Assembly: GCF_944390845.1 (NCBI RefSeq)
Contig: NZ_CALXRM010000023.1
Span: forward strand, 1-46,769
Reading direction: 5' to 3'
DNA length: 46,769 nucleotides
Source of the DNA: an uncultured Brachyspira sp.
Lineage (GTDB): Bacteria > Spirochaetota > Brachyspiria > Brachyspirales > Brachyspiraceae
The notes under the pieces were generated by a model. It was given only the letters and a program-made list of their open reading frames with translations. It had not been told where the DNA came from and did no database searches. The position numbers and the translations under genes are program-made. The number at the start of each line of letters is the position of its first letter. The stretch's first letter is position 1. Shown here piece by piece: positions 1 to 4,322 of this stretch.

Positions 1-790
1 ATTTCATTATGCCTATTATTATTTTTAATAATAATATTCTCTTTTAAACTAATTTGTTTATTAGTAAAGCCATATTTTTTTTGAATAGAAGTAGTGAGTT
101 CTGGTAAAATACATGCTTTTGATAAATCAGAACTATAAACTTTATCAATTTTTTCTTTTATCTCTTTTTCTTCTTTTTGTTTTTCTTCGCTTGAATCTTC
201 ATTATTAGTTTCTTTTTTATTTTCCTGTTTATTATCCTCTCCGCTTCCTTTTTTTGTAAACTTTCCGTCTTTATCTCTTTCATGTTCTTCTTCTTTGAAA
301 TTAGGCGACTGCCCACCTTCGGTGCTGGTATTATATCGTTCCAAAAGTCATATTCTAATTCTTTTAAGTTCTTATTTGGGTGCGGAATTGAGGCAAAGTT
401 CATTAATCTGTTTTTTATTTCTTCTATTGTGTTTTGGTCTTGAGTTGTTATATACGATAATGAAACATTTATCCTACTTTCTAATTCTTTTTTGAAATCA
501 GGCTTTAAATCTTCAATTTTATATTTCTGTAAAGTTGGGGCAACTCTGAACACGCCTTTTTTTATGAATTGATTATATTCATTTTTTAATTTAGAGCGTA
601 CTTCTTTATTGACACTTTTTAATACTTTATCATAATCCTTTTTTATGCCTTTATCTATTGCCCTGATAAGTGCCTCAATTTTTGTTTTTGATAAAATATC
701 ATTAATGCTAAATAAATTATCATCGAAAAATGACTTTAATATTCTTTTTGCTGTGTCAAATAAGCTAAGCATAACTACAGTATAAATCAA
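1..790 (-). pseudogene. Broken phage minor-head (MuF/gp7-like) gene with C-terminal toxin-type module; runs off the window
   Basis: The reading frame opens at ATG 770-772 (a TTG at 790 lies in an upstream repeat and has no SD). Residues up to about 'WNDIIPAP' look like the helical, charged N-terminal part of a phage minor head protein. At about 318-330 the frame breaks. Reading on in the shifted frame restores a linker (GQSPNFKEEEHERDKDGKF) shared almost word for word with the portal remnant at 1005-2258, then an acidic stretch, then the start of a domain with LPEL...KYGF..KQISLKENI that parallels the portal's C-terminal domain. Adding one base near 325 would join both halves. The SPP1 gp7/MuF call is weak because the usual conserved MuF motif is absent. 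Gene order portal then head protein matches phage head modules. It is AT-rich like its surroundings. The nuclease-toxin reading of the C-terminus is inference from its position after the linker. Confidence 0.5.
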
Positions 791-833
791 ACAACAAAAA
801 AAGATTTATACGATAGTTAGTTTATTAATGAAT
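770..833. repeat. Direct repeat copy 1 (promoter/operator-like, about 50 bp)
   Basis: Positions 782-833 are nearly identical to 2467-2518 (ATAAATCAAACAA followed by an A-run, then GATTTATACGATAGTTAG). Each copy contains an inverted repeat ATAAATC/GATTTAT around an A-rich loop. Read on the minus strand it ends in a -10-like hexamer, TATACT here and TATAAT in the other copy. Here it directly abuts the truncated head gene with no SD, so this copy looks like a recombination joint. Confidence 0.6.
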
Positions 834-865
834 ATTTTTAATTAATTATTTTTATTTTTTATCTT

Positions 866-891
866 TACTTATTACAAAACTATGTTAAAAT
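866..891 (+). promoter_or_regulatory. Promoter of structured RNA copy 1
   Basis: TTTACT, 16 bases, TAAAAT, then about 7 bases to the first base of the RNA's closing helix at 899. The same arrangement (TTGACT, 17 bases, TAAACT) precedes copy 2, and the two upstream regions align base by base. Conservation of the promoter with the RNA argues that the RNA is transcribed on its own. Confidence 0.5.
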
Positions 892-898
892 AAATTAT

Positions 899-1010
899 AG
901 CTAGGATGAACTGCAGAAAATCGCGCTCGCCTGCCGTGATATTTAGTATTTACTAAATTGATACGATGGAGGGATTCGGAATATCCGGCGCGCGTCCTCC
1001 CATTCTAGCT
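899..1010 (+). ncRNA. Structured small RNA, copy 1 (four-helix, unidentified family)
   Basis: This is a GC-rich island in very AT-rich DNA. It is homologous to 3142-3241: both share GATGAA/ATGAAT, GCAGAAAAT, CTCG, CTGCCG and GATGGAGGGA at matching places. Helices here: P1 899-908 with 1001-1010 (10 bp, one GU); P2 913-916 with 931-934; P3 935-937 and 941-947 with 952-958 and 963-965, loop ATTT; P4 968-973 with 995-1000, carrying an extra CGGA/TCCG hairpin. P1 and P3 differ in sequence from copy 2 but stay paired, which is compensatory change. A T-rich stretch follows. The last codons of the portal remnant on the other strand overlap P1 by six bases. I could not match it to a known RNA family. 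Confidence 0.65.
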
Positions 1011-2258
1011 TTTATTATGTTTTTTAATTTTTCTATTTCTAGCATTATTATCAATTATATGATAATTGATAATTTCATAGTTTTCTTTTTCTTCAGATAA
1101 TTCTAATAATACTATATCGCTATGTTCATTATCTGTTCTTGTTATGAAATTGTGATATGTGGGTTTGTCTGGATTCGCCTTTAATATCAATTCTGGTTTA
1201 TATAAAGCATTTCCTATTATTCTTTTAGCTTTTTCTTCAGTAATATCGGGGTGGCTTGCCTTATTTTTTTCAATTATATTCTTTTTTAATAAAATAGGCT
1301 TATCTTCTAAACCTTGTTTTTTCAAAAAAGATTTTGGAAAGTTAGGCAGAGTATTATCTTTTGTCCAGTCGATTTTTTCAAGCTGTTCAATTTTTTCTTT
1401 TATTTGTTTTTCTTCGCTTGAATCTTCATTATTAGTTTCTTCTTTATTTTCCTGTTTATTATCTTCTCCGCTTCCTTTTTTTGTAAACTTTCCATCTTTA
1501 TCTCTTTCATGTTCTTCTTCTTTGAAATTAGGCGACTGCCCGCTGTAAGCGTCAGTATCTGCTTTTATACCGCTGACACTTGGCGGTTTATTAAAATTTG
1601 CCTCATCTTCACTATTATTTTTACTATAATCAAACATTGCCTCATCATCTGCCGCATCTGTTCCGCCCATCCCGTCCATTCCTTGAGGCGGAGAGTCTAA
1701 TTCCATTTCATTCTTAAATATTTCGCTTTCGTTTAGCTCTTCTTGTATGTCTGCTATATTTGCCCCTAATTGCTGAGCTTTAAGTAAATTATCAAGTTTT
1801 TTAGCATTATTGTCTTGAGTAACGCTTTCAGGTTCAGGAAATAAATTGCCGTATTCAAACTTGAAGTTTTCTGCCCAGCTTCTAAATATTTCGCTGTCTG
1901 TTTTGTCCTGATATTCGCTGTATTTATAACGCATATCATCAATAAAAGCACTGTCCCAAGCCTTGAGCATGACATAATAATCAGTAAGGTTGTATAAAGG
2001 AGTGAGTTTATTTTCTCTAAAACTTTCTATTATTGATATTTCTGTTTCTTTATCTTTATCTCCCTCGCTGAATCCGTTTGAAAGACTTTTATCAAATAGT
2101 ATTGAGGCAGGCGTATCATTCAAGGCTTTTGTTATATCATCTTCAAGTTTATTAATGCTTTCTATAAGTCCACTTAAATTAGAAATAGGAAAATCTTCGA
2201 TTGTGCTGTCAGCTGAAATAGATTTTTTAATGTTTTTTATTTGGTAAAGAATTGATAT
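1005..2258 (-). pseudogene. Portal protein remnant (DUF1073-like C-terminal part) fused to a charged linker and nuclease-like module
   Basis: The frame is open from 2258 to the TAG at 1005-1007, but no start codon with an SD exists, so the N-terminal portion of the portal is missing; a TTG at 2123 is only formal. The first ~110 residues match the C-terminal part of DUF1073 phage portal proteins: a FPISNLSGLIESI helix region, NDTPASILFDKS (compare the family's PAT.LFG.SP), then a helical IIESFRENKLTPLY segment. A Gly/Asp/Ser-rich acidic region follows, then the linker with ERDKDGKFTKKGSG that also occurs in the broken head gene. The last ~110 residues (LPNFPKSFLKKQG onward) form an alpha/beta domain resembling the C-terminal barnase/EndoU/RelE-type nuclease modules of phage head proteins. 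That assignment is inference. The stop codon falls inside the structured RNA element on the opposite strand. Confidence 0.6.
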
Positions 2259-2284
2259 TCATTTTATATATGTTATAATTTTTT

Positions 2285-2312
2285 TATAGGGTAGGATTGC
2301 CGTCCCACCCCC
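2285..2312 (+). terminator. Probable terminator hairpin
   Basis: GGGTAGGA pairs with TCCCACCC (one A-C mismatch) around a short loop, then CCATTTTTT. It lies between the portal remnant and the 34-residue mini-ORF. Its CCGTCCCACCC arm faintly resembles the P4 arm of the structured RNAs, so it could be a relic of a third copy. Confidence 0.35.
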
Positions 2313-2331
2313 ATTTTTTGTTTTTTAATTA

Positions 2332-2436
2332 CTATTTAAGTAAAGCTACTAATGCAGTAGTTAAGCTCGCAATCGCTATGATGAGTTCTGTTAAAGCTTT
2401 AATCATAGCGATTTTTTCTTGCTGTTTTTTAACCAT
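2332..2436 (-). CDS. 34-residue hydrophobic mini-protein
   Basis: ATG at 2434-2436 follows a strong SD (GGAGG, 7 bases upstream) and the TATAAT end of the second direct repeat. The peptide starts MVKKQQEKIAMIKAL and continues as a single hydrophobic helix rich in Ile, Ala, Leu and Thr, ending in Lys. One membrane-spanning helix with a basic amphipathic N-terminus is typical of small holin-like peptides or type I toxin peptides; no family is recognisable. It resembles the 36-residue peptide at 3720-3830, sharing a KAL..I(A/I).. pattern. Function unknown. Confidence 0.55.
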   Translation of the reverse strand: MVKKQQEKIAMIKALTELIIAIASLTTALVALLK

Positions 2437-2466
2437 CTTATTACCTCCAATTTATTATTATATTGA

Positions 2467-2518
2467 AATTATAAATCAAACAATAAAAAAAGATTTATAC
2501 GATAGTTAGTTTATCGAT
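2467..2518 (-). repeat. Direct repeat copy 2 (promoter/operator-like)
   Basis: This matches 782-833 with only a few differences. On the minus strand it ends in TATAAT about 30 bases upstream of the 34-residue mini-ORF, so here it probably is that gene's promoter. The internal inverted repeat ATAAATC/GATTTAT is a plausible operator, possibly for the neighbouring ribbon-helix-helix proteins (inference). Confidence 0.55.
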
Positions 2519-2531
2519 GTTTTGGAATATT

Positions 2532-2564
2532 AAAAAGCCGACATCATTTTTAATGACATCGGCT
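2532..2564 (-). terminator. Bidirectional terminator after the RHH pseudogene
   Basis: AAGCCGA pairs with TCGGCTT, with an inner TCA/TGA pairing and a CA/CA internal loop. On the minus strand it is followed by a T-run and lies about 20 bases downstream of the RHH pseudogene stop. On the plus strand it is followed by TTGTATTTTTT. Confidence 0.65.
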
Positions 2565-2581
2565 TGTATTTTTTATTTGCT

Positions 2582-2800
2582 TTATTTATTTTCTTCCATA
2601 CCTATTATTTTATCAAGTACGATTTTTTTTGAATATAAGCCAACACTCATATCATTTTCCTCAGCATATTTTTTTAAAAGCTAATTTTCTTCATCGCTTA
2701 TTCTAAAAAATATAACATGAGTATTTTTTTTATTTTCTTTTTTCTTTCTACCAGCACCTTCTCTAGCACCGCCGTGAGTGTTTTTTACTTCATCGCCCAT
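2582..2800 (-). pseudogene. Ribbon-helix-helix small protein A, interrupted by an amber codon
   Basis: ATG at 2798-2800 overlaps the end of the upstream mini-ORF by 16 bases. The product begins MGDEVKNTHGGAREGAGRKK, has a VIFFRISDEEN strand-helix and, after an in-frame TAG, continues LLKKYAEENDMSVGLYSKKIVLDKI to a TAA. It is a paralogue of the intact gene at 3306-3509, with the same GGAR.GAGRKK N-terminus and RHH core. The TAG replaces what is probably a Glu codon (GAG to TAG), so one point mutation explains the break. The truncated product would lack the helices of the RHH fold and is probably non-functional unless the stop is suppressed. Confidence 0.6.
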
Positions 2801-2901
2801 TTTATCACCCATATTAAAATAGATATTGAAAATATAAATAAAGATATAGAAAAAATTATTTTAGATAAATTATTAATTTTTTCTAATGTTTTTTCTTTCA
2901 T
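2785..2901 (-). CDS. 38-residue hydrophobic mini-protein, coupled to RHH gene A
   Basis: ATG at 2899-2901 is preceded by GGAGGTC at SD distance. The peptide starts MKEKTLEKINNLSK, then one hydrophobic segment (IIFSISLFIFSISILIW), ending VIKWAMK. Its last codons overlap the start of RHH gene A, so the two are translationally coupled. The same pair, hydrophobic peptide then RHH protein, recurs at 3614-3306. One transmembrane helix; function unknown. Confidence 0.6.
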   Translation of the reverse strand: MKEKTLEKINNLSKIIFSISLFIFSISILIWVIKWAMK

Positions 2902-3025
2902 AAAAAATTGACCTCCATAATGTTTTTATTATATTATAATGCGTCTGGATTTATAATATTACCAGTTAGTTTTAGTTATTAACAGATTTTAAGTATTATG
3001 TTTATTGCTATTAATAATCAATCGA

Positions 3026-3068
3026 TAGCTTTAATAACTTTGTTAACATTGATTAAGATATTAAGCTA
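3026..3068. repeat. Imperfect inverted repeat upstream of RNA copy 2
   Basis: TAGCTTTAATA (3026-3036) is complementary to TATTAAGCTA (3059-3068) with a one-base bulge. A second pairing AATCAAT/ATTGATT is interleaved and a GTTAAC palindrome lies in the loop. Possible operator or replication-control site; nothing further supports it. Confidence 0.3.
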
Positions 3069-3108
3069 ATCACTTTTTTATTTTTCACCATCTTTTTATC
3101 TTTTGATT

Positions 3109-3137
3109 GACTTATCATAAAAACTTTGTTAAACTAA
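3109..3137 (+). promoter_or_regulatory. Promoter of structured RNA copy 2
   Basis: TTGACT, 17 bases, TAAACT, positioned so that transcription would start near the first base of helix P1 at 3142. It aligns with the promoter of copy 1. Confidence 0.5.
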
Positions 3138-3141
3138 ATAT

Positions 3142-3241
3142 AGAGTTAGTATGAATGGCAGAAAATTTGTCGCCCTCGACTGCCGCTTGCTTAATTTTAA
3201 GTACTGCGATGGAGGGAACGGGCGTCCTCCCTACTAACTCT
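3142..3241 (+). ncRNA. Structured small RNA, copy 2 (four-helix, unidentified family)
   Basis: Helices: P1 3142-3151 with 3232-3241 (10 bp, all Watson-Crick); P2 3157-3161 with 3180-3184 (GGCAG/CTGCC) closing a loop that starts AAAATTT and ends CTCGA; P3 3190-3193 with 3198-3201 around ATTT, with an outer GC/GC pairing; P4 3211-3216 with 3225-3230. A run of seven T (3241-3247) follows the 3' strand of P1, so P1/P4 plus T-run can end transcription. Against copy 1, at least six P1 pairs are changed on both sides with pairing kept, while GCAGAAAAT, CTCG, CTGCCG and GATGGAGGGA stay constant. This pattern supports a conserved RNA fold rather than a random hairpin. Confidence 0.7.
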
Positions 3242-3305
3242 TTTTTTATTTTATAAAAGTCTACTATTTTATAATTCTCTTTCTTATCTTTAATAGATAT
3301 TAAAA

Positions 3306-3509
3306 CTATATTTTTTCACTGTTTATTTTATCTAGTAATATTTTTTTAGCATATTGTCCTATACTTAAGTTATTTTCTTTTGCTATTTGCTCTATTTGTA
3401 AATATAGATCTTTATTTACTTTGAAAGAAATAGATTTAACAGGCTTTACTTTTTCTTCATCTGGAAGTTTCTTTCTTCCTGCACCTTTTCTTGCTCCGCC
3501 TCTCGCCAT
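3306..3509 (-). CDS. Small ribbon-helix-helix DNA-binding protein B
   Basis: A 67-residue basic protein: MARGGARKGAGRKK tail (1-14), an acidic turn, then the RHH core (about 24-63): strand VKSISFKVN, helix DLYLQIEQIAKENN, turn LSIG, helix QYAKKILLDKI. This is the layout of Arc/CopG-type repressors, which act as dimers whose N-terminal strands enter the major groove. The start ATG has GAGGATAAT upstream, formed by the end of the hydrophobic mini-ORF seven bases away, so the two are one operon. It may bind the inverted repeats nearby (inference). Proteins with the GGARxGAGRKK head are common in small plasmids and phages. Its paralogue A is broken. Confidence 0.75.
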   Translation of the reverse strand: MARGGARKGAGRKKLPDEEKVKPVKSISFKVNKDLYLQIEQIAKENNLSIGQYAKKILLDKINSEKI

Positions 3510-3515
3510 GATATA

Positions 3516-3614
3516 TTATCCTCTAATTATGAAAGATATAGATAAAATTATAACTGATAAAGATAATATGATAAAACTAGCAAATTCTATATTTTTGATT
3601 GTTTTCTTGTTCAT
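3516..3614 (-). CDS. 32-residue hydrophobic mini-protein, upstream of RHH gene B
   Basis: ATG at 3612-3614 follows GAGGTC at SD distance. The peptide starts MNKKTIKNIEFASF, continues as one hydrophobic helix rich in Ile, Leu and Ser, and ends in RG. It sits seven bases before RHH gene B, repeating the arrangement of the 38-residue peptide and RHH gene A. Short basic head plus single membrane helix; function unknown, possibly toxin-like. Confidence 0.55.
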   Translation of the reverse strand: MNKKTIKNIEFASFIILSLSVIILSISFIIRG

Positions 3615-3719
3615 ATATTGACCTCTAATTTAATATTTAATTTGTATAAGTGTTTAATAACTTCTAACATTTTTTACTGTTTAATAATTTTATAATTATT
3701 AAATCTCATATTAAAAAAA

Positions 3720-3830
3720 TTATCCATTTTTTGACATAAATATAATCAAAGCTATTGAAGTAATGATTTGACTTGTAGAAAGAGTTATAACAGCAATTAC
3801 TAAAGCTTTTAACAAAGAATCTTTATTCAT
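3720..3830 (-). CDS. 36-residue hydrophobic mini-protein
   Basis: ATG at 3828-3830 is preceded by AGGAG seven bases upstream. It starts MNKDSLLKALVIAVITLS and ends IALIIFMSKNG. It has a single membrane-spanning helix and shares the KAL...IA pattern with the 34-residue peptide at 2332-2436. It lies upstream of the peptide-RHH pair and downstream of another mini-ORF, in the same orientation. Unknown function. Confidence 0.5.
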   Translation of the reverse strand: MNKDSLLKALVIAVITLSTSQIITSIALIIFMSKNG

Positions 3831-3845
3831 AATTTACTCCTGATA

Positions 3846-3938
3846 TTATTGTTTATATTTTTTTATAATCATTATCAAATTTATTATGCTTAAAAGTAAA
3901 GCATAAATTGATATTGTATATGTAATAATTTTTAACAT
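3846..3938 (-). CDS. 30-residue hydrophobic mini-protein
   Basis: ATG at 3936-3938 follows GGAG six bases upstream. It starts MLKIITYTISIYALLLSIIN and ends in a basic IKKYKQ tail: one membrane helix with a positive C-terminus. First of four minus-strand ORFs (3938 to 3306) that read like one small operon. Unknown function. Confidence 0.45.
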   Translation of the reverse strand: MLKIITYTISIYALLLSIINLIMIIKKYKQ

Positions 3939-4259
3939 TTTTACTCCTAAACTGTAATTATATATTATTTATTAATAAAGTTAATAGCATATTTTAAAAA
4001 AATAGAATAATGTTTATATGCATATATTAATGATTCTAAAATAATTGATAGTAGTCTGTAAGTATTGACATAAGTACAGCTTGCCTTTGGTGAGAATATG
4101 ATCCTTTAAATTAATATATTAAGTATTATATATATTTTTTTAATTATTTATTGAAAAATATTAAATATTTTTTATATTTACAACAAATATCAGAAAAAAT
4201 ATTTTACTAAAGTGTCAATTTTGTATTTTTTAAAATAATTAATAAATTTTCAAAAATTA

Positions 4260-4314
4260 TTTACTAAAAATGCATTTTATTGTATAATACTTGCAACAAA
4301 TTTTTAATAAGGAG
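4260..4314 (+). promoter_or_regulatory. pckG promoter and ribosome-binding site
   Basis: TTTACT (4260-4265), 17 bases, TATAAT (4283-4288), AAGGAG (4309-4314) and ATG at 4323. The leader is only about 30 bases, leaving no room for a riboswitch. The rest of the gene-free stretch 3939-4259 is AT-rich; a GC-richer patch at 4065-4110 has a TTGACA but no convincing -10 at the right distance. Confidence 0.75.
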
Positions 4315-4322
4315 TAATATTC

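Follow-up and report, generated by a model that had tools for sequence, protein, structure and literature searches.

Two copies of a structured RNA lie in a degraded phage module

The window analysed here is a 46,769-nucleotide (nt) stretch of contig NZ_CALXRM010000023.1 from an uncultured Brachyspira sp., and near its left end lie two copies of a structured RNA of about 100 nt, both on the plus strand and each beside minus-strand sequence for the phage domain LPD13 (PF18825) (Table 1). A preliminary description of this DNA had reported both copies, and their helix positions and a covariance model confirm them where it placed them. The phage- or plasmid-like surroundings that it recognised can be narrowed to the degraded remains of a phage portal/head module. 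Next to copy 1, a portal fragment ends in an LPD13 domain that scores 67.3 bits against PF18825 (E=1.7e-18), above the Pfam gathering score of 27 bits; copy 2, an orphan, has a remnant of LPD13 beside it.

In both copies helix P1 encloses P2, P3 and P4, and a promoter scan found sigma-70-like sites 6-7 nt 5' of P1; these sites, at 864-891 and 3107-3135, would place the transcript start at the first bases of P1, in keeping with the earlier proposal. Promoters of the type TTGACT-16/17-TAAACT recur 5' of other copies of the RNA. The seven T residues at the end of copy 2 and the fixed single-stranded blocks are also as first described; the fixed sequence blocks are GCAGAAAA, CG and GAUGNRGGRAA. 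P2, in contrast, had been drawn as a five-pair GGCAG/CTGCC helix and is really 4 bp (GCAG/CTGC), because copy 1 has a T opposite C at the fifth pair. No tRNA mimicry by the RNA was detected with ARAGORN.

Table 1. Coordinates of the RNA copies, their promoter-like sites and adjacent LPD13 sequences in the window.
Feature	Position	Strand	Basis
RNA copy 1	899..1010	+	covariance model, 91 bits (match span 898-1013); covariation
Copy 1 P1	899-907/1002-1010	+	nine pairs
Copy 1 P2	913-916/931-934	+	4 bp, GCAG/CTGC
Copy 1 P3	935-937/963-965 plus 942-947/952-957	+	
Copy 1 P4	968-972/996-1000	+	
Copy 1 kissing strand in P2 loop, CGCGC	922..926	+	complementary to 990-994; permutation test
Copy 1 kissing strand in P4 loop, GCGCG	990..994	+	
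Promoter of copy 1, TTTACT-16-TAAAAT, extended -10 TG	864..891	+	promoter scan; conserved 5' of other copies
RNA copy 2, including T7 tail	3143..3247	+	covariance model, 90 bits (match span 3143-3242)
Copy 2 P1	3143-3151/3232-3240	+	
Copy 2 P2	3158-3161/3180-3183	+	
Copy 2 P4	3211-3215/3226-3230	+	
Copy 2 kissing strand in P2 loop, CGCCC	3171..3175	+	complementary to 3220-3224
Copy 2 kissing strand in P4 loop, GGGCG	3220..3224	+	
Promoter of copy 2, TTGACT-17-TAAACT	3107..3135	+	promoter scan
Portal fragment of a phage, LPD13 domain at its C-terminus (1032-1370); putative toxin partner of copy 1	1005..2258	-	Pfam; own-genome search; stop codon within P1
LPD13 C-terminus remnant beside copy 2 (~29 residues)	3226..3312	-	home-made LPD13 profile, positions 89-117, E=5e-4
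Second LPD13 domain, truncated by contig end	3..179	-	PF18825, 24.6 bits, under cut-off

Homologous copies preserve the helices and a variable kissing pair

A covariance model made from five copies of the RNA recovered 17 copies, spread over 12 of the 26 genomes searched in the same genus, and gave no matches in 35 other genomes of the phylum. The source genome has four copies, of which two are those of the window and the other two lie on contig C118. A search of phages for window copy 1 found none, and those loci from a loose-pattern scan of contigs that were checked with the covariance model did not match it. A hand-made descriptor of the RNA was discarded as proof: it gave 0 matches in shuffled sequence, but control contigs totalling 2.6 Mb yielded 29.

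The P2 loop is complementary to the P4 loop over five bases, a feature that the preliminary description had overlooked. The sequence of this kissing pair varies from copy to copy while the pairing is kept: its variants are CGCGC/GCGCG, CGCCC/GGGCG, CAGCC/GGCTG, CTCAC/GTGAG, CGTGC/GCACG, CTGCC/GGCAG, CTGAC/GTCAG, CGGGC/GCCCG, CGGAC/GTCCG and CGACC/GGTCG. All 28 distinct units form at least 4 bp and 21 of the 28 at least 5 bp, compared with maxima of 23 and 15 units, respectively, in 20,000 permutations. In a 22-sequence alignment that was fitted to the helices, 97.3% of cells pair, compared with 80.6% after shuffling, and 16 of 26 pairs are altered on both sides; the kissing pair was excluded from the model and was hence not fitted. 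The covariation score was 0.484 versus 0.175 in shuffled alignments (0/500) and at most 0.098 in slid registers. Nine of nine P1 pairs covary across the same alignment. At least six P1 pairs had been said to differ on both sides between the window copies; the proper register gives only about two for that comparison, although all nine differ on both sides across the family. Within the helices G-U cells outnumber A-C cells by 19 to 3, and the plus strand is therefore the functional strand.

The sequence-based outcomes that the preliminary description had named as refuting it did not arise: additional homologues retain P1 and P4, and no Rfam match of the window reaches threshold. Even at the most divergent viral locus (L353), where the model scores only 14.5-20.7 bits, P1 and a GGCCA/TGGCC pair are retained. 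The kissing pair is mismatched at the standard position in the RNAs of loci L018 and L023, and the RNA of L029 is degenerate; these are decayed or orphan cases. The original view of a free-standing functional RNA is strongly supported by the covariation, by a promoter and a terminator, by the strand-specific G-U pairs and by the occurrence of homologues in other phages. A selfish or recombination element, spreading together with effector cassettes, could account for several copies per genome with flanks in common; we nevertheless consider this very improbable, as an own promoter and compensatory changes speak of selection on the RNA itself.

The RNA marks the 3' ends of LPD13 genes

Each intact copy lies in convergent orientation at the 3' end of an LPD13 domain; in one pair of phages, a PBECR1 gene also serves as the neighbour. 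Across 393 spirochaete genomes, an RNA lies at the 3' end of all 16 LPD13 genes over cut-off. Thirteen of these loci belong to the same genus, where LPD13 was counted by a Pfam family search blind to the RNA; outside it LPD13 occurs in three spirochaete genomes, all three with a divergent version of the RNA at that place, one of which sits antisense inside a 1608-codon reading frame. A protein search of IMG/VR yielded nine further LPD13 loci on eight contigs (two near-identical), with the RNA at 9/9, its search patterns having come from RNA-linked members, so that the Pfam-based count is the cleaner one. No LPD13 was found in annotated phage and plasmid collections. RNAs lacking a full LPD13 are decayed or orphan (L018, L023, L029 and window copy 2). 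In most cases the stop codon of the effector gene lies within P1 or at its end, and the 3' ends often overlap. Taken together, these findings describe a genuine and new RNA family, built on a known architectural plan, whose link to a phage effector domain is strong.

LPD13 is often fused to a phage portal protein (as in L206, and in L377, a 1064-residue portal adjoining terminase), or else is encoded separately next to head genes. Several species of the genus have, adjoining the PEPCK gene, degraded pieces of portal/head genes in which an RNA is retained (window 1-4320, L383, L384), and this site is a decaying prophage insertion hot spot.

At 2332-3938 of the window, five tiny hydrophobic open reading frames (ORFs; 30-38 amino acids) on the minus strand are interleaved with two RHH-like ORFs, one interrupted by a stop (2681-2812) and one with a weak RHH_7 match (3306-3509; E=1.5e-4). 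A comparable set lies near other RNA copies (L023, L377). A near-identical repeat of about 45 bp occurs at 783-826 and 2471-2515 (ataaatcaaac...gatttatacgatagttagttta), and at L023 and L026, in other genomes, sequence resembling it lies 5' of RNA copies.

Relatives of the RNA accompany PBECR genes

The RNA family had not been recognised by the preliminary description, and an Rfam search of the window (cmscan) indeed returned no family at gathering score, the phage packaging RNA (pRNA) model included; the window copies were also unmatched by the skipping-rope RNA (RF02924). A match to snoTBR7 (27.4 bits; gathering score, 45) was dismissed as chance. Below threshold, however, there is a link to a known family: RF02924 matches a same-genus genomic copy (31.6 bits) and one unit of a phage array (24.1 bits) over its full length, against a gathering score of 36.7. 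Conversely, a model made without skipping-rope sequences (R2) ranks skipping-rope sites as its top eight matches in eight loci. The two families have in common the order P1-P2-P3-P4 and a pseudoknot, which in skipping-rope RNA is backed by covariation (PMC7779021), as well as GCAG(G)AAA at P2, AUG ahead of P4 and a promoter 5' of the RNA. The new family differs in scoring under the gathering threshold, in being longer with a variable 5-bp kissing pair, and in being convergent to LPD13 or PBECR1, whereas skipping-rope RNA lies 3' of PBECR3 on the same strand. The new family is thus a distant cousin of skipping-rope RNA.

In six of eight treponeme loci, a PBECR3 gene encoding about 120 residues immediately precedes skipping-rope RNA and is read in the same direction; the five treponeme genes scanned match the Pfam family with E values of 1e-15 to 1e-20. 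The RNA takes the same place in one IMG/VR phage and one Streptococcus suis phage. Two further phages with skipping-rope RNA have no recognised PBECR adjacent; in one of them, a Streptococcus satellite phage (L420, 1488-2083), the RNA is followed by a gene for a Gp49-type (HigB/RelE-like) toxin. An RNA at L348:3102-3186 was rejected as a PBECR3 partner, since it adjoins an LPD13 remnant and the PBECR3 gene there has a skipping-rope RNA of its own.

These arrangements bear on whether the RNA might act as a type I-like antisense RNA that pairs with the 3' end of the effector mRNA, as in convergent Bacillus and Clostridioides pairs. Convergent genes with overlapping 3' ends are what such a mechanism would predict. 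Complementarity to the LPD13 reading frame is, however, not above chance, compensatory structure is retained across distant phages and effector types, and the related skipping-rope RNA is on the same strand as PBECR3; a type I antisense role is therefore disfavoured. In L352, moreover, a full LPD13 copy has its stop 321 nt beyond the RNA end. On all these grounds we regard such a role as unlikely.

The array mentioned above lies on phage contig 3300006201_000524 (L372, 3309-3700), where a single promoter (TTGACA-17-TATAAT) 3' of a PBECR1 gene precedes four RNA units that differ from one another and have separate P1 helices and kissing pairs; a near-identical contig is arranged likewise. Convergent P1-closed RNAs with a promoter and a T-run, recognised by eye only, were also seen 3' of PBECR1 or PBECR3 in L374, L375, L345 (2050-2650), L399 and L402, some with loop-loop complementarity (GTCTG/CAGAC in L375, GACC/GGTC in L399).

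Flanked by portal and head genes that are read from the other strand, the RNA might be a regulator of late transcription acting by collision, termination or attenuation. Such a regulator would have no need of a conserved kissing pair and core, and the RNA occurs in a four-unit array and outside phage operons, which makes this role decidedly unlikely. Still less credible, and in our view extremely improbable, is a packaging RNA like that of Phi29 that multimerises through complementary loops: the closed P1, the length of about 100 nt, the two complementary loops and nearby portal and terminase genes are reminiscent of one, but the pRNA model gave no match at gathering score, several different RNAs occur within one phage, and chromosomal relatives adjoin PBECR3.

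A proposed antidote to phage-borne effectors

MuF-C and PBECR domains are predicted BECR ribonucleases (PMC5512222), and toxin-tailed MuF proteins of temperate phages are believed to require adjacent immunity factors (PMC5576092). The predicted structures of LPD13 and PBECR3 (predicted local distance difference test scores of 90 and 88, respectively) have a common helix-strand order and several Foldseek matches, including a MuF-C protein, and an hhalign comparison of the two domains found no sequence similarity. On these models, LPD13 may have a MuF-C/PBECR-like ribonuclease fold.

We think it probable that the RNA is an antidote, similar to a type III antitoxin, of phage-borne BECR-type ribonuclease effectors. 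Among the earlier suggestions of a regulator, an antitoxin RNA or a selfish element, the antitoxin fits best, with an LPD13 or PBECR effector as its partner and not the RHH genes or tiny peptides. In the mechanism that we infer, the RNA would be one half of a toxin-antidote pair on temperate phages, and LPD13, or elsewhere PBECR1 or PBECR3, would supply the toxin as a small BECR/MuF-C-type ribonuclease domain. Because this domain is joined to portal and minor head proteins or encoded next to them, the toxin would be made late and probably be packaged and injected. The RNA would be transcribed on the opposite strand from its own constitutive-looking promoter, and P1, P2, P3, P4 and the P2-P4 kissing pair would fold it into a compact pseudoknot whose fixed blocks (GCAGAAAA, CG, GAUGNRGGRAA) may bind the toxin and block it, as type III antitoxins block ToxN. 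Such neutralisation would protect the lysogen and its phage, and orphan RNAs such as copy 2 may still confer immunity to incoming phages.

Several observations weigh against this proposal. No solved structure matches LPD13, which its describers did not place among the likely enzymatic LPDs (PMC5512222). Among 14 PBECR3 loci over cut-off, the covariance model finds a clear RNA in 2 only; either the models miss RNAs that have diverged too far, or many effectors have none. The convergent layout, own promoter and mostly single copy are unlike type III systems, and late transcription would cross the RNA gene antisense.

The same pairing of RNA and effector could instead reflect a cofactor or cargo RNA whose binding would guide the effector, activate it or bring it into the virion, with no inhibition involved. 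The fusion of LPD13 to portal proteins and the obligate presence of the RNA at LPD13 genes are compatible with this idea, which we hold to be rather unlikely: the RNA promoter opposes the late operon, the RNA is kept where the effector was lost (copy 2), and RNAs are kept in chromosomes beside stand-alone PBECR3 genes.

More tentatively, and with somewhat less than even confidence, the antidote proposal may extend to a superfamily of kissing-loop RNAs, skipping-rope RNA included, that would act against injected or chromosomal BECR-fold ribonucleases, with phages gathering arrays of different units as a repertoire against the effectors of rivals. The proposal offers a testable function for skipping-rope RNA, a structured RNA of unexplained role, and for its new relative, and a partner for LPD13, a domain of unknown function. 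If true, immunity to the polymorphic toxins that phages carry would come to include an RNA form, and type III-like systems would gain a member whose toxin fold and gene layout are both new.

Comparison with known toxin systems

Type III toxin-antitoxin systems (ToxIN, CptIN, TenpIN; PMC5086642) likewise combine a small pseudoknotted RNA with a ribonuclease, which here is putative. The P2-P4 kissing pair, with its compensatory changes, supplies the pseudoknot, and one tandem array was seen. The toxin family is a different one. Type III repeats lie upstream of the toxin in one operon with a terminator between, whereas the RNA described here is convergent and has a promoter of its own, and its units are large, four-helix and mostly single, those of the array (one phage plus its near-identical contig) being non-identical.

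MuF polymorphic toxins (PMC5576092) and polyvalent proteins (PMC5512222) resemble the LPD13 loci in that a portal or MuF protein carries at its C-terminus a variable toxin domain, thought to be injected, and in the expectation of an adjacent immunity factor. They differ in the nature of that factor, which in the LPD13 loci would be an RNA in place of a small protein.
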